Assembly (NCBI GenBank): GCA_003222895.1
Contig: QHXI01000080.1
Location: 1 to 57,173 of the forward strand
Length of the DNA stretch: 57,173 nt
Direction: 5' to 3'
Source: Acidobacteriota bacterium
Lineage (GTDB): Bacteria; Acidobacteriota; Blastocatellia; Pyrinomonadales; Pyrinomonadaceae
Positions 42,625 through 51,575 of the stretch are shown one piece after another (within the stretch, counting starts at the first letter, position 1; every line of letters begins with the position of its first letter). A program made the translations under genes and the position numbers. The notes under the pieces are model-generated. The model was not told the DNA's origin. It was given only the letters and a program-made list of their open reading frames with translations, and searched no databases.

Positions 42625-45612
42625 CTAAAAACTAAAGCGAATTTGCGCTTCTATCAGCCGATTGAAGGGAGCTGAGCCACCGCCGCCGCGTCCGCCGAAG
42701 CCTGCAAAACCCCCAGCGCTGCTGTTCGGGATGCCGAACGAAGGTGAACTGAGATTGCCGACAGGGGATCTATAGTTCACATGATTTAGGATGTTCTGAA
42801 AATTTATTCCCACCGTCAGATTGTAACGTTTGTTGCCCTCGGCTCCGCCAAATCCGCCGCCACCACCACCGCCGCGACCGCCGCCACCCCCAGCACCACC
42901 TCCGCCGCGGGCCATAGCTCCACCGAAGCCGCCCCGAGGTCCACCGCCGCCGCCTCGCTGGCCATCGCGATTTCCCTGATCACCCTGTCCACGGTTTTGT
43001 GAGGTCGCCTTCCGCTCGCTGCCAAAACCAAACGTCTTGCTCACGCGCAGATTCGAAATGATCGAGCCGGGACCTTGTCCGTAGTTGCGCGGAATTATCA
43101 CTGCGCCTGGAACGGGGTTCGTATCGAAGGCGCCAAACTTTGTGACGACGACGCCGGGTCTGGTTAAGTCCGTTGCGAATGCCGGGCGATCCGTAAACAG
43201 AATGTCGCCATTCAAGTCTCTGCCGATCGTAATGTTGAAGGGCGTTCCAGACGAAATGACCAGCAGCGGGCTGAAGCTAATTCCCCAGGGCGCTCTTAAG
43301 GCGCCGTACAAAGTAAAGCGATGCCGCACGTCAGTTGACGCGCGTCCATATTCATCGGCGAAGTCATACGGGTTCGCGGCAAAAGTCCCGGAGCCGTCGG
43401 TATCGCTCATCGCTTTGCCAAACGCATAATTCGCATTGAAGTTTATCTTCCGATTGAGCGCGCCGCCGAAGGTGACAATCAAAAGGTTCTGATTAAAGAC
43501 GCCGCTCGAGTCGTACTCGAAAAAGTTGTTTACGCCGAGCGGGCGCGTGCCGCTCCCCGGCAAGTTGGGAATGAAAGTGCCGGGCAAAGGAGCATTGACT
43601 GCGCGGGCGCGCAGCATGTGAACCGTCCGCGTGCGGCTGAACGTCACGCTGGTTCTAAAGTTATGCGGCAGGGCGTGTTCGACACTGACGATGGACTGCA
43701 TCGAGTACGGCGCCTGAATATCATTAGCCAGCGAGTAGATCGAAATCGGCGTCTTGAACGCCTGCAAGACCGCCAGGCTCGGCACAATCGGATAGCTATT
43801 CAGCACCGCGGGATTCGTAACCACGTATTGCTGCTGATTGACTCCGTTATTGCGAATTGCGTTAAGCGTCAGATTCTCGCTGATGCGATCGTAAAAAACT
43901 CCAAAACCGGCGCGGATGGTTGTACTACTCGGATGTTTCTGACTCCAGTCCGGCGCCCAGGCGATTCCCACCCGAGGCGCTAAATTCAGATTGCTACTGA
44001 TATTGCTTTGATTTTCGTAACGCAGTCCCGCGCTGATCGTCAGGTTGGGACGAAATTTCCAGTCGTCTTGCGCAAAACCACCGAAATCGAATTGCTTAAC
44101 ATCAGCCAGCGGAGTTCCGACGCTAATCGAGAACTGAGTCGCACCGCCGCCAGCAGCGCGAATTTGCGCGGCACTCAGGCTCTGTTGCAAACCTTGCTGC
44201 GTTATCTGATATGCCTGGATACTGGTTAGACCATTAGGATTGGCCAGGTTGCGCGTTCCCGAAAAAGTCCACGTGCCGCCGAAATTCTGCGGCGAGATGT
44301 TGGAAACGTTGACAGTGCGCGCTCGCGCTCCGAACTTCACCGAATGATTGCCCAACGCCAGCGACGTAATGTTGGTGACTTCAAAGCGATTCTGTTTATT
44401 CGAAGCCAATCCGATCTGTGAGCCGCCGCCGGTAAACGCTTCCTGAACATTAGTGGTGGGAATTGAGTTATCAGCCGTGTCGCCGTTGGTTTGATGATTA
44501 AACTGAAAGCGAGTTTCGTTAACGGTCTTCTTATTTATGATGGCGGTTTCGGTTAGCCGGATCGTTTGTTGAGTGCTGAAGTTGCGGTATTTCCGTGATG
44601 CGAGAGAATAACCACCGACGCCGGTAATCGCCGTCGAGTGTTCATACTCATAACGAGCCACGAGGGTGTTCTTAAAATTGATTTGATAATCGAGGCGGGG
44701 GCTAAATGTTGTGCGACGCGTAGGCGTGGCGACCGTAGCCGCGAATGGCACGATGTTGAAATTTGAATCGAGCACGATTGCATTAATAACGGCGTCGTCG
44801 TTTACATCACGTTTCTCTAAATCAATAAAGAATGAAGCCTTCTTCCTGGTAATCGGACCGCTCATGTTGCCGCTAAACTGACGTGACATGTACGGAGCGC
44901 GCGTTACGGCAAACGGATTCCGGGAATTCAGAGCTTGATTGTTAAAGTTGAATGAGACCTGTCCGCGAAATCGATCGGTGCCGGGCTTGGTGAAAATTTC
45001 GATTCTTCCCAATCCCGGTCGATCGTATTCGGCCGAGAACGGATTTGCATTGATGCGAATCTCGCGAATCGAGGCCAACGGCGGCAAGCGCCCGCCACTG
45101 AAACCATCGATATAAATCTGTCCGCCGTTTGGACCGGCCGCTGGGCCGGCGAGAGCTTGCAACGCAGCCGCAAGGTCATCCGGATCGTCTGGGAGCGATT
45201 CTAGATCGGTGCCTTTCAAAACGATCGCCCCGACATTGTTCTCGGGATCGGTATTGACGCCTGTGCTGTCGGCTGAGACCGTGACCTTCTGTTGCTCGAT
45301 CGTGACTTTCAACACAACGGACAACGGTTTTGTGCTCGCGGAAATATCGACATCAGTGCCCTGGTAGTTTGCAAATCCCTGCGCGGCCACTCGAACCGTG
45401 TACTTGCCTGGGGCCAGGCCCGTAAAGCCAAAAGCGCCTTCGCCGTTCGTCGTTGCGGTCTTCGTCGCCCCACCCGCATCGATAGCCGTTACCGTCGCGC
45501 CGACGATCACGCCGCCAAACTCATCTGAGATCTGACCTTTCAATATGCCGGACGCGCGCTGTGCAAGCACTGCGGTCGCACAAAGCAGAAGGACTATTAA
45601 AGAACGTTTCAT
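42625..45612 (-). CDS. TonB-dependent receptor (Oar-like) with regulatory domain and Gly-rich tract
   Basis: A 995-residue outer-membrane protein. Signal peptide 1-18 (SLIVLLLCATAVLAQ); carboxypeptidase-regulatory domain about 23-105 (GILKGQISDEFGGVIVGATV); plug domain about 115-200 (LESLPDDPDDLAAALQALAG, IYIDGFSGGRLPPLASIREI, VGRIEIFTKPGTDRF-like); then a long beta-barrel with aromatic-rich strands, a Gly-rich low-complexity segment near the C-terminus, and the final RLIEAQIRFSF. Receptors of this layout take up large substrates (peptides, glycans, chelates) with TonB energy. ATG 45612 with AGGA 8 nt upstream gives a proper signal peptide; the open frame above it overlaps the substrate-binding gene and is not used. 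Downstream lies the giant coiled-coil gene. Confidence 0.92.
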   Translation of the reverse strand: MKRSLIVLLLCATAVLAQRASGILKGQISDEFGGVIVGATVTAIDAGGATKTATTNGEGAFGFTGLAPGKYTVRVAAQGFANYQGTDVDISASTKPLSVVLKVTIEQQKVTVSADSTGVNTDPENNVGAIVLKGTDLESLPDDPDDLAAALQALAGPAAGPNGGQIYIDGFSGGRLPPLASIREIRINANPFSAEYDRPGLGRIEIFTKPGTDRFRGQVSFNFNNQALNSRNPFAVTRAPYMSRQFSGNMSGPITRKKASFFIDLEKRDVNDDAVINAIVLDSNFNIVPFAATVATPTRRTTFSPRLDYQINFKNTLVARYEYEHSTAITGVGGYSLASRKYRNFSTQQTIRLTETAIINKKTVNETRFQFNHQTNGDTADNSIPTTNVQEAFTGGGSQIGLASNKQNRFEVTNITSLALGNHSVKFGARARTVNVSNISPQNFGGTWTFSGTRNLANPNGLTSIQAYQITQQGLQQSLSAAQIRAAGGGATQFSISVGTPLADVKQFDFGGFAQDDWKFRPNLTISAGLRYENQSNISSNLNLAPRVGIAWAPDWSQKHPSSTTIRAGFGVFYDRISENLTLNAIRNNGVNQQQYVVTNPAVLNSYPIVPSLAVLQAFKTPISIYSLANDIQAPYSMQSIVSVEHALPHNFRTSVTFSRTRTVHMLRARAVNAPLPGTFIPNLPGSGTRPLGVNNFFEYDSSGVFNQNLLIVTFGGALNRKINFNANYAFGKAMSDTDGSGTFAANPYDFADEYGRASTDVRHRFTLYGALRAPWGISFSPLLVISSGTPFNITIGRDLNGDILFTDRPAFATDLTRPGVVVTKFGAFDTNPVPGAVIIPRNYGQGPGSIISNLRVSKTFGFGSERKATSQNRGQGDQGNRDGQRGGGGGPRGGFGGAMARGGGGAGGGGGRGGGGGGGFGGAEGNKRYNLTVGINFQNILNHVNYRSPVGNLSSPSFGIPNSSAGGFAGFGGRGGGGSAPFNRLIEAQIRFSF

Positions 45613-45752: not shown

Positions 45753-46787
45753 TTATTTTCCTCGGCCGCGAATATTCGTCTCCCAGTAACGCAGCCAATC
45801 GTTGCTTTGTCGTCGCAGCAAATCCCAATCGATGTGCATGCGCGTGAAGGGAACATTCATCCAATCTGGAAGCTGCCTGCGATCGATGTCCGTACGAACC
45901 GGAATGCGATAGTAGTTGCGAGCTGAAGCGGTCAGGCTCTCGTTCGTCGTCACGAATTCATAAAAGCGCTTCGCTTCTTCTTCATGCGGCGCGCCGCGAA
46001 CGATGGCGATACAATCGATTACGACGGGACTCCCACTTGTTGGAATGTTGTAGCCAACCGGCAGATTCTTCTGCTCGCGATAAAGGCGCGCGTCGGGCAT
46101 ATCCCAAAGCGTTATCAAACCTTCCTGCCGCGCCAACTTCTGCATCAACAACGTCCCATCAGCCGTGTACTCGTGAACGTTGGTATCGAGACGTCTTAAC
46201 CAGTCATAACCCTGGTCGGGCGCTTTCGTGTCTTTATAGTAACGCCAGATCATGCCGCCAAAGATTGCCCGCATCGTGTCCGAAGGATTCGGATTGCGAA
46301 TGAGAACTTTGTCGCGCCATTTTGGATCGAGGACGTCGTCCCAATCCCTGGGCGCGTCTTCAGCGTGCACCGCGTCTGAGTTGTAAACGATTACTTCCGG
46401 AGTTTCATAAGTTCCGTACCAGCGATCCTGAGGGTCGCGAGCATAATCCGGAACCTTGTCGGCCCAACTCGGCTTGTACACGGCAAGCAAATTCTCATCG
46501 GCTGCGGTTTGAAAAGTCGTGTGGGCCGCGCCCCACCAAAGATCCGCTTGCGGCCGATTGCGTTCAGCGCGAATCCGCTCGAGCACTTCGCGCGATCCCA
46601 TGTCGAGAAATTGCACATCGACGTCAGGATGAATTTGTTTATAGCGCGCAATGAAATCGCGCAGCATATCCTGACCATGCGGCGTGTAAATTAGGAGTCG
46701 ATGCGGATTCGATTGAGTCGAACGACAGGAGAGCGAAGCCGCGAAGGCCAGACTCAATACGAGAGCTAGGCATTTGGCAAATGACAT
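45753..46787 (-). CDS. Extracellular solute-binding lipoprotein (ABC transporter type, iron/AfuA-like)
   Basis: A 344-residue protein with a signal peptide ending at the lipobox SLSC (Cys21) and a type-2 periplasmic binding protein fold. Its RLLIYTPHGQDMLRDFIARY and PQADLWWGAAHTTFQTAAD match the family of Fe3+/sulfate/thiosulfate-binding proteins (FbpA-like), with WYGTYETPEVIVYNSD, and SGSPVVIDCIAIVRGAPHEE. No ABC permease or ATPase is nearby, so it is orphaned from its transporter. It lies just upstream (on this strand) of a TonB receptor, in the arrangement of an uptake pair. No good ribosome site before ATG 46787; see the overlapping ORF with a strong site. Confidence 0.83.
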   Translation of the reverse strand: MSFAKCLALVLSLAFAASLSCRSTQSNPHRLLIYTPHGQDMLRDFIARYKQIHPDVDVQFLDMGSREVLERIRAERNRPQADLWWGAAHTTFQTAADENLLAVYKPSWADKVPDYARDPQDRWYGTYETPEVIVYNSDAVHAEDAPRDWDDVLDPKWRDKVLIRNPNPSDTMRAIFGGMIWRYYKDTKAPDQGYDWLRRLDTNVHEYTADGTLLMQKLARQEGLITLWDMPDARLYREQKNLPVGYNIPTSGSPVVIDCIAIVRGAPHEEEAKRFYEFVTTNESLTASARNYYRIPVRTDIDRRQLPDWMNVPFTRMHIDWDLLRRQSNDWLRYWETNIRGRGK

Positions 46788-46932: not shown

Positions 46933-47436
46933 TCAATGATCCAGATTGCCGATTGATCCGAGATTCTCGACGCCACGCAATCGATATTGATTTACGATCA
47001 TCTCTCGTTGTTCGGCTGTGAGCACTTTATAAAAGCTCGCTTTTGCGCGGGCTTTCATCGCGATGATTTCGCCAAGCAATGCCGCCTGCTTAACCGAAAC
47101 GAGATGGATTTTGCTTTCATCCAATTGGCCACGGAAGGCCGCAACGGAAAGCTGAGCGTCCAAATCGTCGAGTTGCTCGAATAACGCCTCGGCGCCTCCC
47201 ATTGTCGCTGTAGCAATCGTTACGATCCGAAACTTCTGGTTCGGCGTCAGTTTCAAGTCTTCAGTAATCGGATCGAAGACGGCCTGGATAAGATCCTCGC
47301 CATCCTGATTTGTTTTCGTCTGCGTCAACTGCTGCGCAGCGTTCGGTTTGATTTGGATGATCACTTGCGCCGCCGCCAGCGCAGCGTTCATTAATACCAG
47401 CGCTGTCGTGACCACAAGTAATTTCGCTGTTTTCAT
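46933..47436 (-). CDS. Spy/CpxP-like periplasmic protein
   Basis: A 167-residue exported protein: signal peptide (LLVVTTALVLMNAALAAAQ), then a helical LTXXQ-like domain with DLKLTPNQKFRIVTIATATM, an acidic linker DDLDAQLSV and the second motif KVLTAEQREMIVNQYRLRG. Spy and CpxP bind unfolded proteins in the periplasm and restrain the Cpx sensor. Lies 27 nt downstream of the beta-barrel gene and clearly co-oriented with it; GGAG 8 nt before ATG 47436. A second Spy-like gene lies at 48588-49094. Confidence 0.82.
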   Translation of the reverse strand: MKTAKLLVVTTALVLMNAALAAAQVIIQIKPNAAQQLTQTKTNQDGEDLIQAVFDPITEDLKLTPNQKFRIVTIATATMGGAEALFEQLDDLDAQLSVAAFRGQLDESKIHLVSVKQAALLGEIIAMKARAKASFYKVLTAEQREMIVNQYRLRGVENLGSIGNLDH

Positions 47437-47463: not shown

Positions 47464-48087
47464 TCACTTGATCACAATTCCGGTTGAGAATCGAAATCCA
47501 TTCAGTGTGTGATTTGGAATCGTGATTGTGTCGACGGTCCGAGCGCGCAGGAAGATTGGATTGTAGTCCGCCTGGAAAATTCGCCACGCGAATCGATCGT
47601 TCAGCTTGTAATCGACACCGCCGCCGAGATTCAAAGTGAAGCTGGTCTTGTTGTCCGTGAACGTGCTTGCCGTGCTCGCGATCGTCTCGGTGAAACTGCG
47701 GCGTGAGATTCCGGCCAGACCGTGCACGAATGGTGTGAGTCGGCTGCTGCTGGGGAACCTAACCTGCGGGCCGCCAGTGAAGTTGTAAAGAGAGAATTTC
47801 GTTTGACCGCTAGTCGTTCCGAACACGTCGCTGCGCGTATTAAAATTGGCCGAGAAATCTCCGGTAACTCCGAATCGTTTCGTGAAATAACCTGTGCCGG
47901 CCAAATTCAATCCATTCGTTTTGAAGCGATTATCCAGAGTCGTCGTCGTGTTGAGGTCAGTACTGGTGACTCCAGTGTCTACCGTTTCGAATGAATAGCC
48001 TGCGAAAAATTCCGGCTTCTTGTTCTGAGCAAACGAGGTTGCAAACGCAGAGAGAACAATTACGCAGAGAAGAGTAATCCTTTTCAT
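47464..48087 (-). CDS. Outer-membrane beta-barrel protein
   Basis: A 207-residue protein with a signal peptide (ITLLCVIVLSAFATSFAQ) and the aromatic, alternating pattern of an 8-stranded OMP_b-brl/OmpA-like barrel (EFFAGYSFETV, GLNLAGTGYFTKRFGVTGDF, PFVHGLAGISR, GVDYKLNDRFAWRIFQADY, LNGFRFSTGIVIK at the end). It resembles porin-like surface proteins in size and motif. ATG 48087 has AAGGAG 5 nt upstream; the longer ORF to 48177 is not needed. Its gene lies beside the Spy/CpxP-like genes and a Cpx-like system, so it may be a regulon member (inference). Confidence 0.85.
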   Translation of the reverse strand: MKRITLLCVIVLSAFATSFAQNKKPEFFAGYSFETVDTGVTSTDLNTTTTLDNRFKTNGLNLAGTGYFTKRFGVTGDFSANFNTRSDVFGTTSGQTKFSLYNFTGGPQVRFPSSSRLTPFVHGLAGISRRSFTETIASTASTFTDNKTSFTLNLGGGVDYKLNDRFAWRIFQADYNPIFLRARTVDTITIPNHTLNGFRFSTGIVIK

Positions 48088-48170
48088 ACAAACTCCTTTA
48101 GATCGATATGAATAAACGCGGTGACTCGTTGCAGAGCTGTTCGAGTCAACGCCTGGCAACGTCTTGTACA

Positions 48171-48186
48171 CAAGCACCGGTGCTTG
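48171..48186. promoter_or_regulatory. Perfect 16-bp palindrome CAAGCACCGGTGCTTG
   Basis: Perfectly self-complementary, about 84 nt upstream of the beta-barrel gene start on the minus strand. No other copy was seen by eye in the window. It could be a binding site for a dimeric regulator. Confidence 0.4.
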
Positions 48187-48364
48187 CCGATGAAATTCGG
48201 GTGGTTATGACTTATCGATTTCCCGAACTGCTAAGACGCCGGTTTGTAGATCGACGACGCAAAGAGTCAGTGAATCGAATGTGAAGTTTTGTGAAGCGGC
48301 GAAAACGAAGTGGGTTAAAGAGAGGTGTCCCAACTTCAAGTCTTCCTCTGTGCTGGCTCGGCAA

Positions 48365-48430
48365 CCTCCGCGTCTCTGCGGTGAATCTCCGTCCGAAATA
48401 CTCACCGCAGCGACGCAGAGAACGCGGAGG
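48365..48430. repeat. Dispersed hairpin repeat, GACGCAGAG family (copy 2)
   Basis: Left arm CCTCCGCGTCTCTGCGGTGA (48365-48384) pairs with right arm starting TCACCGCAGCGACGCAGAG (48402-48430, with a 9-nt insertion). Related sequences: 35258-35339 and, weakly, 4930-5005. The 48088-48587 gap otherwise holds only promoter-like and hairpin sequence. Confidence 0.75.
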
Positions 48431-48488
48431 GAGCGCAGAGAATTTCAAATTAGGGCACTACTGGTTAATTGAAGATCAGCCGGCGCAA

Positions 48489-48577
48489 AGGGAGGGCGCT
48501 CTCCCCATTTTGATTGCCCTCCCTCTTCGAGCCGGTCTTTCAGCATCCTCAACGTGCCTCTTCGTCGAGGACGCTGA
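48489..48577 (-). terminator. Two hairpins downstream of the second Spy-like gene
   Basis: Reading on the minus strand past the stop at 48588: TCAGCGTCCTC/GAGGATGCTGA (48577-48567 with 48550-48540, one mismatch), then AGGGAGGGC/GCCCTCCCT (48524-48516 with 48497-48489, perfect 9-bp stem) followed by TTTGCGCC. A weak terminator pair; the U-tract is short. Confidence 0.45.
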
Positions 48578-48587
48578 ACCTCGAAAG

Positions 48588-49094
48588 TTAAAAGCGATCG
48601 GGTGGCGGCGGCGGCGGGCCTTGTCGTTCGAACTGTTGACGCCTGGCGGTCAGTTGCGCTTTCTGATCAGCCGTCAAGACGGCCCCGATTAGCGACATCA
48701 TCTTCGCGTGCGAGACCTCTAACTCGATCTGGATCTTCGCGCGCGCTTCAGCTGCCGCTCGCACGGCGGCCTCGTCGAATGTGCCGCTCATCGGATCGGG
48801 TTCGCTCTGATGCAGCGCACGCATCTGATCGAATAACGCCTTGTCGCTCTCGCGAAAGCTGTCCTGAATTGTTTTGATCTGCGCCTTCTGATCGTCGGTG
48901 AGATTCAAATCCCGTCCGAATGGTCCCAAGCCTTCACGCGGTCCTCCGGGCCCTCCCGGCCCACCCCGAAATCCGCCACCGAACGGGCCCGGGGGCGGGC
49001 CTTGCGGTCCCTGTGAAAGCGCAAAAGTCGCCGCGATTAAGAGCACAAAGACCGCCACGCCCGCGATGCTGAGTTTCTTCCAATTTAGTTTCAC
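48588..49094 (-). CDS. Spy/CpxP-like protein, divergent from the Cpx-like system
   Basis: A 168-residue exported protein. Signal peptide (KLSIAGVAVFVLLIAATFALS), a Gly/Pro-rich linker (GPPPGPFGGGFRGGPGGPGG) and a helical domain with two LTXXQ-type motifs: LNLTDDQKAQIKTIQDSF and VLTADQKAQLTARRQQF; the C-terminus is Pro-rich. GTG start with AAGGAG 6 nt upstream. It is divergent from the response regulator/sensor genes at 49334-51575, matching the cpxP/cpxRA arrangement. CpxP-like proteins typically inhibit the sensor and deliver misfolded proteins for degradation. Role here is inferred from family and position. Confidence 0.86.
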   Translation of the reverse strand: MKLNWKKLSIAGVAVFVLLIAATFALSQGPQGPPPGPFGGGFRGGPGGPGGPREGLGPFGRDLNLTDDQKAQIKTIQDSFRESDKALFDQMRALHQSEPDPMSGTFDEAAVRAAAEARAKIQIELEVSHAKMMSLIGAVLTADQKAQLTARRQQFERQGPPPPPPDRF

Positions 49095-49333
49095 GATTTT
49101 CTCCTTCTCGAATCAAATGAATCGATTGATCGCACCGTTTGCGATACTTCTTTGTTCAATTAGTCGCGCATTGGACGCTTGCCGTATGACCGGTGACGTG
49201 AAGAGTTCGTCAAGCGTTCGCAAATTATCCGAAAGTCGGGTGTTCAATACTCCGGCGCGCTTTACAATGAGGAGAGCGCATCTAAGATAGGCAGCAGGCG
49301 AGGCCTCGACCCGACCATCAAGTGAAGTCAACG
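49095..49333. promoter_or_regulatory. Divergent promoter region between the Spy-like gene and the CpxR-like gene
   Basis: A 239-nt divergent intergenic region. The only clear symmetry is ACGCTTG (49175-49181) with CAAGCGT (49211-49217), a perfect 7-bp inverted repeat 29 nt apart. I did not find a GTAAA-N5-GTAAA CpxR box, so the regulator's site remains unknown. Likely autoregulation of the module is inference. Confidence 0.4.
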
Positions 49334-50017
49334 ATGCAACGAATTCTGATAATCGATGACGACATTGAACTCTGTGACCTGGTCACTGAGTATCTCGAGC
49401 CCGAGGGCTATGCCGTCGAATCCGTCAATGAAGGTCATGCAGGCGTTGACCGCGCCTTGACTGGCAATTACGCGCTGGCAGTTCTCGATTACATGTTGCC
49501 CGGTTTGAATGGCTTCGAGGTCTTGCGTCAGATTCGCGCAACTTCACGCTTGCCGGTTGTGATGTTGACGGCGCGCGGCGACGATATGAATCGGATCATC
49601 GGTCTGCAGATTGGAGCCGACGATTATTTGCCTAAGCCATTCAATCCGCTCGAACTGGTCGCGCGAATTAATGCTGTTTTGCGTCGCTCGCAGCCGCAAA
49701 CGGATCAAGAGAAGATCGAAGTCATCTCCATCGGTGATATTGAAATGGACAATCGCACGCGCACCGTTCGGCGCGCAGGCGAATCAATCGAGCTAACAGT
49801 CGTTGAGTATTCGCTGTTGGAAAAGCTGCTCAACGCGCCCGGCCGAATCCTTACTCGGGAAGAGTTGGTAAGAGAAGTTTTGCGTCGCGAGCTGTCGCCT
49901 TTCGATCGCAGTATCGACACGCACGTGAGTAACCTGAGAAAGAAGTTGGGCCATGAAGTGAATGGCGTTGAGCGGATCAAGACCGTTCGCGGCGTCGGGT
50001 ACATCTATGCGAAATAG
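49334..50017 (+). CDS. OmpR-family response regulator, CpxR-like
   Basis: A 227-residue regulator with an N-terminal receiver domain (acidic pocket IDDD at 7-10, phospho-acceptor D52 in VLDYMLPG, T79, K101 in LPKPFNP) and a C-terminal winged-helix domain (about 130-225; EYSLLEKLLNAPGRILTREE, SIDTHVSNLRKKLG, IKTVRGVGYIYAK). The start ATG 49334 is chosen because it is next to the receiver fold (MQRILIIDDD); GTG 49322 is in frame. It is followed by its sensor kinase at 50139 and divergent from a Spy/CpxP-like gene, which argues for a Cpx-like role in envelope stress. Confidence 0.93.
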   Translation: MQRILIIDDDIELCDLVTEYLEPEGYAVESVNEGHAGVDRALTGNYALAVLDYMLPGLNGFEVLRQIRATSRLPVVMLTARGDDMNRIIGLQIGADDYLPKPFNPLELVARINAVLRRSQPQTDQEKIEVISIGDIEMDNRTRTVRRAGESIELTVVEYSLLEKLLNAPGRILTREELVREVLRRELSPFDRSIDTHVSNLRKKLGHEVNGVERIKTVRGVGYIYAK

Positions 50018-50024
50018 TGTGAAG

Positions 50025-50120
50025 TCTGGAGCGCGGGGTGCGGAGTTTTGAAGCGCGGGATAGGATTTCCGATCACCGCTCGGGAACACACCTCTCCAAG
50101 CTCCAGACTCCGCACTCCAG
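50025..50120. repeat. Inverted repeat with GTGCGGAGT arms between regulator and kinase genes
   Basis: Left arm TCTGGAG...GTGCGGAGT (50025-50047) and right arm ACTCCGCACTCCAGA (50106-50120), with extra ACTCC blocks in the right arm. It separates the CpxR-like stop from the kinase start and could weaken or shape the two-gene operon's expression. Confidence 0.65.
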
Positions 50121-50138
50121 AACCTTTAATTAACTAGT

Positions 50139-51575
50139 ATGCGTAGCCTGTTCGTTAGAATTCTTTTGTGGTTTGGGCTCGCGATGATCGCGGCGGCCGT
50201 CACCTCTTTTGTGGTGGGAGTCGTTGCCGAGCGGCAAGCGCGCGACATGGCGCCGCCGCACCTCGTACAGGCGTTAGCTATCTATTCGCAGACTGCAGCC
50301 GACTTGATCGACCGTGATGGTCCCGCGAGTGTCAACGCCTACTTTGATCGCATCGAGCAGATCTCCGGCGTTCATGCTTTTCTGGTCGATGAGAATGGAG
50401 CAGAGATTTCCGGCGAGACCCTGCCGCCAGGATCTCTTGAGTTGGCCCAACGCGCGCGACAAAAGATCGGTTTGGTTAACGATTTGACTCACGAACTTCC
50501 GTTGAACGCGGTGGCGGCGCGATCACCCAAAGGCACGGTATATGTCCTGGTGGCCCAGGATGCAACCTTCAGGCGCGGCTTGTTCTGGCTGCCCGGAAGG
50601 CCGGGTTCGTTTCGCTTCACGGTGATTGCGTTTACGCGGAATCTTTTGCCGATTCTCCTGGTTGGCGGCGTGTTCTGTTATTGGTTGGCGCGATATCTTT
50701 CGACGCCTATCGAAGAGTTGCGCGGCGTGACGCAGGAACTTTCAGATGGCAAGCTGACTGCACGCGTGAACGAAAAGTTGCTGAGGCGACGCGATGAGAT
50801 TGGTCACCTGGGGCGTGACTTTAATGTGATGGCCGGCCGGATTGAATCGCTGGTTGAGGCGCAGCGCAGATTGCTCGGAGACATTTCGCATGAGTTGCGA
50901 TCGCCGCTCGCCCGCCAGGGAGTGGCGTTGGGTTTAGCGCGCCGTCGTGCGGGGGCTGAAGCCAGCAGCGCGCTCGATCGGATTGAGCGCGAAGGCGAAC
51001 GTCTCAACGAAATGATCGGACAGTTGCTGGCATTGTCACGACTCGAGAGCGGCACCGACGGTCTGAAGAACGTGAAGATCGATCTGAACAGCCTGGTTCA
51101 GGACGTTGTCGATGACGCGGATTTTGAAGCGCGCAGCGGCACCCGCTCCGTCAGTTTGGTTAAGGACGAGCCATGTCAGTTGTTCGGCGTGCCTGAGTTA
51201 ATCAGAAGTGCGATCGAAAACGTGGTTCGCAACGCGGTGCGTCACACGGAAAAGGGAACTGCCGTAGTTGTTTCGTTGGTTGCCGAAGCAAACCATGGCG
51301 AACGCTGGGCCACAATTAATGTGCGCGATCACGGCAAAGGCGTTCCCGAAAACTCAATCGCGGAAATCTTCCGGCCGTTCTATCGCGTAGAAGATGCGCG
51401 CGATCGCACGACCGGCGGCACGGGTCTCGGGCTCTCAATCGCCGCGCGCGCTGTGCGACTGCATCGCGGCACGATCAAAGCTTCGAATGCGGAAAACGGC
51501 GGGCTGTTGGTGGAGATTAGGCTGCCGGTGGAAAGTCAATCCGACGATTACACGGATTTCACAGAAAATAATTAG
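50139..51575 (+). CDS. Sensor histidine kinase, CpxA-like
   Basis: A 478-residue membrane kinase. TM1 about 7-29 (RILLWFGLAMIAAAVTSFVVG), periplasmic domain about 30-160, TM2 about 166-186 (TRNLLPILLVGGVFCYWL), HAMP about 187-240 (RYLSTPIEELRGVTQEL), HisKA with the phospho-acceptor His251 in LLGDISHELRSPL, then an ATPase domain (IENVVRNAVRHT, VRDHGKGVPE, TGGTGLGLSIA). It phosphorylates the regulator encoded 121 nt upstream. The last residues (SQSDDYTDFTENN) are encoded by the dispersed repeat that begins at 51546, so the native C-terminus probably ended near LPVE. No ribosome site; a hairpin lies between it and the regulator. Confidence 0.92.
   Translation: MRSLFVRILLWFGLAMIAAAVTSFVVGVVAERQARDMAPPHLVQALAIYSQTAADLIDRDGPASVNAYFDRIEQISGVHAFLVDENGAEISGETLPPGSLELAQRARQKIGLVNDLTHELPLNAVAARSPKGTVYVLVAQDATFRRGLFWLPGRPGSFRFTVIAFTRNLLPILLVGGVFCYWLARYLSTPIEELRGVTQELSDGKLTARVNEKLLRRRDEIGHLGRDFNVMAGRIESLVEAQRRLLGDISHELRSPLARQGVALGLARRRAGAEASSALDRIEREGERLNEMIGQLLALSRLESGTDGLKNVKIDLNSLVQDVVDDADFEARSGTRSVSLVKDEPCQLFGVPELIRSAIENVVRNAVRHTEKGTAVVVSLVAEANHGERWATINVRDHGKGVPENSIAEIFRPFYRVEDARDRTTGGTGLGLSIAARAVRLHRGTIKASNAENGGLLVEIRLPVESQSDDYTDFTENN

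Follow-up and report, generated by a model that had tools for sequence, protein, structure and literature searches.

Does an acidobacterium possess a Cpx-type envelope-stress system, and if so, which genes belong to it? In Escherichia coli, the Cpx system responds to disturbances of the cell envelope by producing chaperones. We analysed a stretch of 57,173 nucleotides from an Acidobacteriota bacterium of the Pyrinomonadaceae (assembly GCA_003222895.1, contig QHXI01000080.1, positions 1 to 57,173; hereafter the window), in which a CpxR-like regulator and a CpxA-like kinase had been predicted to lie divergent from a Spy/CpxP-like gene, with a beta-barrel gene and a second Spy-like gene following on the same minus strand. 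Our sequence comparisons indicate that the locus very probably encodes a Cpx-type envelope-stress two-component circuit. No account of a Cpx system in Acidobacteriota was found among the open-licence papers listed by our searches, as judged by titles and the beginnings of abstracts. All five genes of the module were confirmed by open reading frame (ORF) listing, translation and Pfam:

50139..51575, plus strand: CpxA-like sensor histidine kinase (HAMP, HisKA and HATPase_c domains)
49334..50017, plus strand: CpxR-like response regulator of the OmpR class (Response_reg and Trans_reg_C domains; alternative GTG start at 49322)
48588..49094, minus strand: Spy1, a Spy/CpxP-like protein encoded divergently from the regulator (LTXXQ, expectation value E 2.2e-15, 57.6 bits, cut-off 24.3)
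47464..48087, minus strand: outer-membrane beta-barrel protein (OMP_b-brl, E 1.4e-10; ORF open to 48177)
46933..47436, minus strand: Spy2, a second, divergent LTXXQ protein (E 2.5e-5, 25.3 bits, barely above the cut-off of 24.3)

The divergent arrangement of spy1 and the regulator-kinase genes was borne out by the ORFs and the Pfam domains. The beta-barrel gene and the second Spy-like gene, 27 bp behind it, do share the minus strand, and Spy2 falls outside the interval 47464-51575 that the original prediction had given for the module.

Kinase, regulator and Spy proteins

The kinase was compared with the CpxA, BaeS and PhoQ types of sensor, as the original prediction had proposed, and CpxA came first throughout. 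Among the NCBIfam models, the Legionella-type CpxA model NF045900 scored 298.7 bits over residues 1-464, the sensor part being covered, and the other CpxA model, NF007007, scored 280.9 bits; the best family other than CpxA was MtrB with 157. The top three matches among the PDB sequences were CpxA (best 7e-50; next match 1.8e-25). In BLAST searches against 11 E. coli kinases, CpxA reached 178 bits (40% over 280 residues), BaeS 119 and CusS 98. We then built a careful tree of 56 rows, comprising the window, 12 of 80 family relatives and 12 of 60 other relatives (both drawn at random), 20 control kinases and the 11 E. coli kinases. A set of 28 rows, supported at 98/96, united the window, the 24 relatives, two controls and E. 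coli CpxA, and the ten other E. coli kinases all fell outside it. Grouping the acidobacterial kinases with BaeS was rejected in this tree (p=2e-52), as was, less firmly, a grouping with PhoR (p=0.035). A fast tree of 172 rows gave the same CpxA grouping with a support of 0.879; by path length, no E. coli kinase lay farther away than PhoQ. By sequence, the kinase can be assigned to the CpxA clade and, among the E. coli kinases compared, to no other sensor family.

The regulator gave a less uniform picture. E. coli CpxR was its first BLAST match (174 bits, 43% identity) and OmpR a close second (168 bits). In a tree of 167 rows, which included 13 E. coli regulators and six paralogues from the window's own genome, CpxR sits inside the acidobacterial set; support was 0.78 for the smallest set holding both CpxR and the window and 0.987 for the set from which the remaining 12 E. 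coli regulators are shut out. CpxR was also the nearest by path length (1.94, the next being at 2.71) among these regulators and paralogues. Across the recognition-helix region, the regulator shares 13 of 19 residues with CpxR and no more than 10 with any of the other 12 E. coli regulators. Tree and BLAST therefore favour CpxR, in keeping with the name first proposed, whereas NCBIfam alone does not give that name; on its sequence, we place the regulator in the CpxR clade.

For Spy1, a search against 26 E. coli proteins returned CpxP (4e-9) and Spy (9e-7), and its best solved relatives are likewise CpxP and Spy; an LTXXQ fold is supported for this protein at the level of sequence. Just as predicted for one of the two Spy-like proteins, Spy1 carries a Gly/Pro-rich stretch, which precedes the LTXXQ domain. 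Spy1 and Spy2 are 30% identical over 89 residues. The structure model of Spy2 alone, with a predicted local distance difference test score (pLDDT) of 38.8, was not used as evidence.

Gene order and the Cpx box in relatives

We searched 119 genomes of the same order for the kinase, scoring at most 13 candidates per genome, and found it at E below 1e-60 in 80 of them; 80 of the 82 matches from genomes other than the window's own were examined as loci. Across the phylum, 396 genomes were drawn; the CpxA model matched in 99 of them at 1e-45, and loci outside the family were examined for 60 of the 64 matches with at least 198 bits. Control loci came from 20 of 38 weaker-scoring kinase matches, and a scan of named genomes yielded one close relative and three remote kinases. 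A divergent Spy-like gene lies within 2.5 kb of the regulator in 48 of 69 family loci (window included) that were assessable, with sequence reaching 1 kb or more beyond the regulator on its upstream side. Outside the family but within the phylum, such a gene stands next to the regulator in 20 of 56 assessable loci, and in total we found this arrangement in the window and 70 loci of relatives. With these frequencies, the gene order of enterobacterial cpxP/cpxRA that had been read into the window proves common among its relatives, and, with LTXXQ matching five times in the 4.77 Mb of the window's genome (E 0.001), the core spy-cpxR arrangement is far from chance. In Spy-less loci, other genes occupy the place of Spy; among those named by eye are Oar-like barrel and nagA-like genes.

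The promoters of the relatives carried the comparison beyond gene order. In PMC12802237, the CpxR motif is printed as GTAAA-N5-GTAAA, and with at most one mismatch this box was present in 59 of the 71 regions between spy and the regulator (window included), whereas 20 dinucleotide shuffles of these regions averaged 1.05 and never exceeded 3. In an unprompted search over every direct repeat of five bases with a spacer length from 4 to 7, GTAAA-N5-GTAAA came first with 53 loci; the best words of three shuffles reached 5 to 9. Counted over the 300 nt before the regulator, 69 of 75 loci in the family have the box (3.2 expected), as do 2 of 17 controls (0.35 expected). Because it is kept in 20 of the 24 family loci that lack Spy, the box goes with the regulator and not with Spy. 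The word that the regulator presumably reads in these relatives is the Cpx box of E. coli, which suggests that the DNA word of a regulator can stay unchanged over a very great distance. The ten defining bases of the E. coli cpxP/cpxR box match the acidobacterial box exactly and its spacer differs; on 112 kb of E. coli loci, the acidobacterial weight matrix ranked that box only 16th.

A stricter word, GTAAAGWWWTGTAAA, occurs 250 times in the 119 genomes, against 14 occurrences of the reversed word, and these sites make up a candidate-target list for envelope stress in Acidobacteriota. The word was present in 64 of the 80 genomes with the kinase and in 11 of the 39 without it (Fisher p=6e-8, uncorrected for kinship). 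We read 30 sites, one per genome in listing order (L and G numbers are our own handles for loci and genomes). Eight were regulator promoters (one, L318, under a miscalled ORF), 19 precede other genes with products that, judged by eye, seem to be exported or bound to the membrane, two lie inside called ORFs (L319, L324) and one has no called gene (L327). The 19 candidate targets comprise nine DUF5666-type proteins, four Spy-like proteins (in one case, L315, another ORF overlaps the gene), two each of MacB-type permeases and small exported proteins, and a single Oar-like barrel and a single META protein. Pfam supported these names in part, with four DUF5666, three LTXXQ, two MacB_PCD, one META and one OMP_b-brl_4 match among 21 box-linked proteins.

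At nine sites (L301, L304, L307, L309, L310, L313, L321, L322 and L326), the gene that follows the strict box, at a distance of 44-134 bp, encodes a member of a single exported-protein family, 44-61% identical to that of L301 and in part DUF5666/CusF-like. This family may be the most conserved Cpx target in the order. L312 and L314, which come from two genomes of a single genus, each have a Spy-like gene that stands under a strict box and is divergent from a dxs-like gene (named by eye).

Several observations weigh against a Cpx assignment. The kinase stays below both CpxA equivalog cut-offs (280.9 against 486 for NF007007, 298.7 against 800 for NF045900), and its periplasmic domain alone matches only HK_sensor in Pfam, with 22.0 bits under a cut-off of 30.5. 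A model of this sensor domain (135 residues, from an alignment of two rows) was poor, with a pLDDT of 53 and a predicted template modelling score of 0.49, and was not used as evidence. For the regulator, NCBIfam ranked OmpR (209) above CpxR, which at 200 stood level with MtrA (200) and below CreB (204), and the cut-off of the CpxR equivalog NF008199 was not reached (200.1 against 341). Two of the 20 control kinases (L228, L244) fall inside the CpxA set in both trees; a constrained CpxA/window set without them was not rejected (p=0.31). Of the seven genomes of the same genus, the window's own counted, three gave no such kinase at the threshold of 1e-60. Among loci from outside the family, only 19 of 56 have the box in the 300 nt before the regulator (0.8 expected), namely 10 of 20 with Spy and 9 of 36 without. 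LTXXQ-type genes were found in 5 of 20 control-kinase loci, a sixth match lying at a locus edge. Finally, the spy1/regulator promoter of the window itself holds no box with two or fewer mismatches.

Since the scores stay below the NCBI equivalog cut-offs and the window's own promoter lacks a good box, we regard the locus as a variant and not as a plain Cpx member. The signal sensed by the kinase may differ from that in E. coli, because the sensor domain alone lacks a CpxA-specific Pfam match. An LTXXQ neighbour by itself proves little, as five of the 20 control kinases have one too. These five (L225, L226, L229, L232 and L234) branch outside but near the CpxA set, so the habit of pairing Spy with a kinase may be wider than Cpx and mark a wider family of Spy-linked two-component systems.

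Sites in the window and the beta-barrel/Spy2 pair

Where in the window would such a regulator bind? A weight matrix of 22 positions, made from 60 boxes of other loci, was run over both strands of the window, and the spy1/regulator promoter was aligned with those of relatives. The sites considered are:

48278..48299, plus strand: best Cpx box of the window, GTGAA-GTTTT-GTGAA, core 48281-48295, weight-matrix score 17.65
49198..49234, plus strand: eroded Cpx half-site array in the spy1/regulator promoter, GTGAA, GTCAA, GCAAA and CGAAA, spaced 11, 11 and 10 bases
49260..49265, minus strand: single intact GTAAAG half-site in the spy1/regulator promoter

The eroded array stands at the aligned place of better arrays in the relatives, and at the place of the single half-site, most of the seven relatives shown have GTAAAG or GTCAAG. 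The best score within this promoter was 4.68, rank 18 in the window. The box at 48278-48299 ranked first, the next site scoring 11.9; it lies 191 bp upstream of the beta-barrel start, and a third half-site, GTGAA at 48270-48274, stands beside it. As the strongest box of the window precedes the beta-barrel/Spy2 pair and the one between spy1 and the regulator has eroded, the circuit may have shifted its main output to this pair.

In our searches, relatives of the beta-barrel and Spy2 stood side by side in only one other genome, G044. There the top-scoring site (16.51) is placed 187 bp upstream of the beta-barrel gene, in the same relative orientation as in the window; the pair is on contig 7, apart from the cpxRA loci of that genome on contigs 28 and 37. 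G087 has a relative of the beta-barrel (59%), without a Spy2 match and without a comparable site upstream. A looser genome-wide pattern gave four sites in the window's genome (two for the reversed control) and four in G044 (none for the control), among them 48278-48299, the site of the G044 pair and the regulator/Oar promoter on contig 28 of G044. Another of the four box-like sites of the window's genome (L293, G000:C14:49197-49211) adjoins a gene whose start resembles that of a sensor; a regulator paralogue lies about 2 kb from the site.

In the nearest relative, L038 (kinase 78%), the genes run Oar, Spy1, regulator, kinase, EF-G in the same order as in the window, and the interval from Oar to Spy1 measures about 550 bases against about 2.98 kb in the window. 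The additional segment of the window holds the genes for a solute-binding protein, Spy2 and the beta-barrel, which the L038 locus lacks. Given this otherwise collinear locus with its shorter interval, the three genes were either inserted in the window or lost in L038. In the 141 loci of relatives that were searched, no relative of the beta-barrel scored above 80 bits. The original prediction had named a separation of the Spy-like genes from the kinase in close relatives as telling against it; we found such a separation for Spy2 and the beta-barrel and not for Spy1. It had further taken the two Spy-like proteins as signs of a specialised version. Both genes are there, and the one thing that argues for the specialisation itself is the box before the beta-barrel/Spy2 pair.

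The circuit that we propose would work as follows. From its family, the membrane kinase is expected to sense periplasmic or inner-membrane stress and to phosphorylate the regulator. The regulator would bind direct GTAAA repeats at five-base spacing, as the conserved motif of the relatives and the conserved recognition helix suggest, and would then activate envelope genes. Spy1, as a putative periplasmic protein of the CpxP/Spy type, would bind unfolded proteins and probably damp the kinase. The beta-barrel and Spy2, under the window's strongest box, would form a second output; the pair is not syntenic, and by its site it is probably a Cpx target. A further-reaching version holds that the Cpx circuit and its DNA word are shared between phyla and that the circuit's output has been rewired in this lineage, the spy1/cpxR box decaying and a movable beta-barrel/Spy2 unit with a strong box serving as a dedicated outer-membrane stress effector. 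We put this forward tentatively, as possible rather than probable.

How well does the pair's membership hold up? The core of the locus could be Cpx-like and the beta-barrel/Spy2 pair a chance neighbour outside Cpx control. The pair's absence from the collinear locus of the nearest relative would fit, as would its place on another contig than both cpxRA loci in G044 and the lack of a good box before the beta-barrel relative in G087. Set against this, the best box of the window precedes the pair, the only other pair known to us, that of G044, has its site at a similar distance in the same orientation, and in relatives other Spy-like genes away from cpxRA stand under boxes too (L312, L314, L328, L315). 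We regard a chance neighbourhood as unlikely, though it keeps some weight.

Another alternative is an OmpR-class system whose LTXXQ partner is a heavy-metal sensor of the Metal_resist kind, like ZraP or CnrX, and which would respond to metals and not to misfolding. Spy1 does match Metal_resist below threshold (23.0 bits, cut-off 29.2), and four of the 21 proteins behind boxes in relatives match CusF_Ec, a copper-binding family. However, the LTXXQ match of Spy1 is far higher (57.6 bits) and its best solved relatives are CpxP and Spy, the kinase is nearer to CpxA than to CusS (178 against 98 bits), and the promoter word is the Cpx box. The CusF matches, moreover, occur in DUF5666-like proteins and may reflect a resemblance of fold. 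A metal-sensing system is therefore improbable. A BaeSR- or PhoPQ-like system in place of Cpx can hardly be right: BaeS does rank second among the E. coli kinases (119 bits) and E. coli spy responds to both BaeR and CpxR, but the BaeS grouping was rejected within the tree used, PhoQ is the most distant of the E. coli kinases, and gene order and box are those of Cpx.

Known systems and neighbouring features

We compared the locus with described counterparts. With the Cpx system of E. coli K-12 (NC_000913), the window shares the divergent LTXXQ gene, the order of regulator and kinase and the clades of both proteins, and its relatives share GTAAA-N5-GTAAA in the common promoter. It differs from that system in identity (40% in the kinase core, 43% in the regulator), in a sensor domain without a CpxA-specific Pfam match, in the eroded divergent box and in the extra beta-barrel/Spy2 pair under a box. 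Like E. coli Spy, to which it aligns over 120 residues at 32%, Spy1 has the LTXXQ domain; unlike there, where spy does not adjoin cpxRA, the window has its gene next to the regulator, Spy1 has the Gly/Pro-rich stretch and Spy2 is barely recognisable. A 2025 paper places Cpx homologues throughout the alpha-, beta- and gamma-Proteobacteria, most of them having a divergent cpxP (PMC12802237). The Pseudomonas aeruginosa system described there resembles the window in having lineage-specific genes added at the locus and the same motif, and differs in that the kinase and regulator genes flank cpxP and that the added genes are others. Spy homologues are given for enterobacteria, proteobacteria and some cyanobacteria in PMC8144458. 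In Acidobacteriota, a large and little-studied soil phylum, a whole Cpx circuit can now be read, its predicted binding site included.

Beyond Spy2, two further genes lie on the same strand:

45753..46787, minus strand: extracellular solute-binding protein, within the segment missing from the locus of the nearest relative
42625..45612, minus strand: large CarboxypepD_reg/outer-membrane beta-barrel protein, which we take to be Oar-like

The Oar-like barrel gene stands behind spy1 in the nearest relative and directly divergent from the regulator in some other loci (L046-L050). The solute-binding protein is doubtful as a member of the module. Its nearest NCBIfam models are aminoethylphosphonate-binding proteins, far below their cut-offs, and no adjoining transporter gene was recognised by eye.

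Rfam, at gathering scores, gave no match between 45600 and 52000. The hairpin in the spacer between regulator and kinase was considered as a genome repeat and rejected, its sole match in the genome being itself. It belongs to one of two intergenic inverted repeats, at 48346-48440 between spy1 and the beta-barrel box and at 50016-50116 between regulator and kinase, with arms of 39 and 32 nt, respectively.

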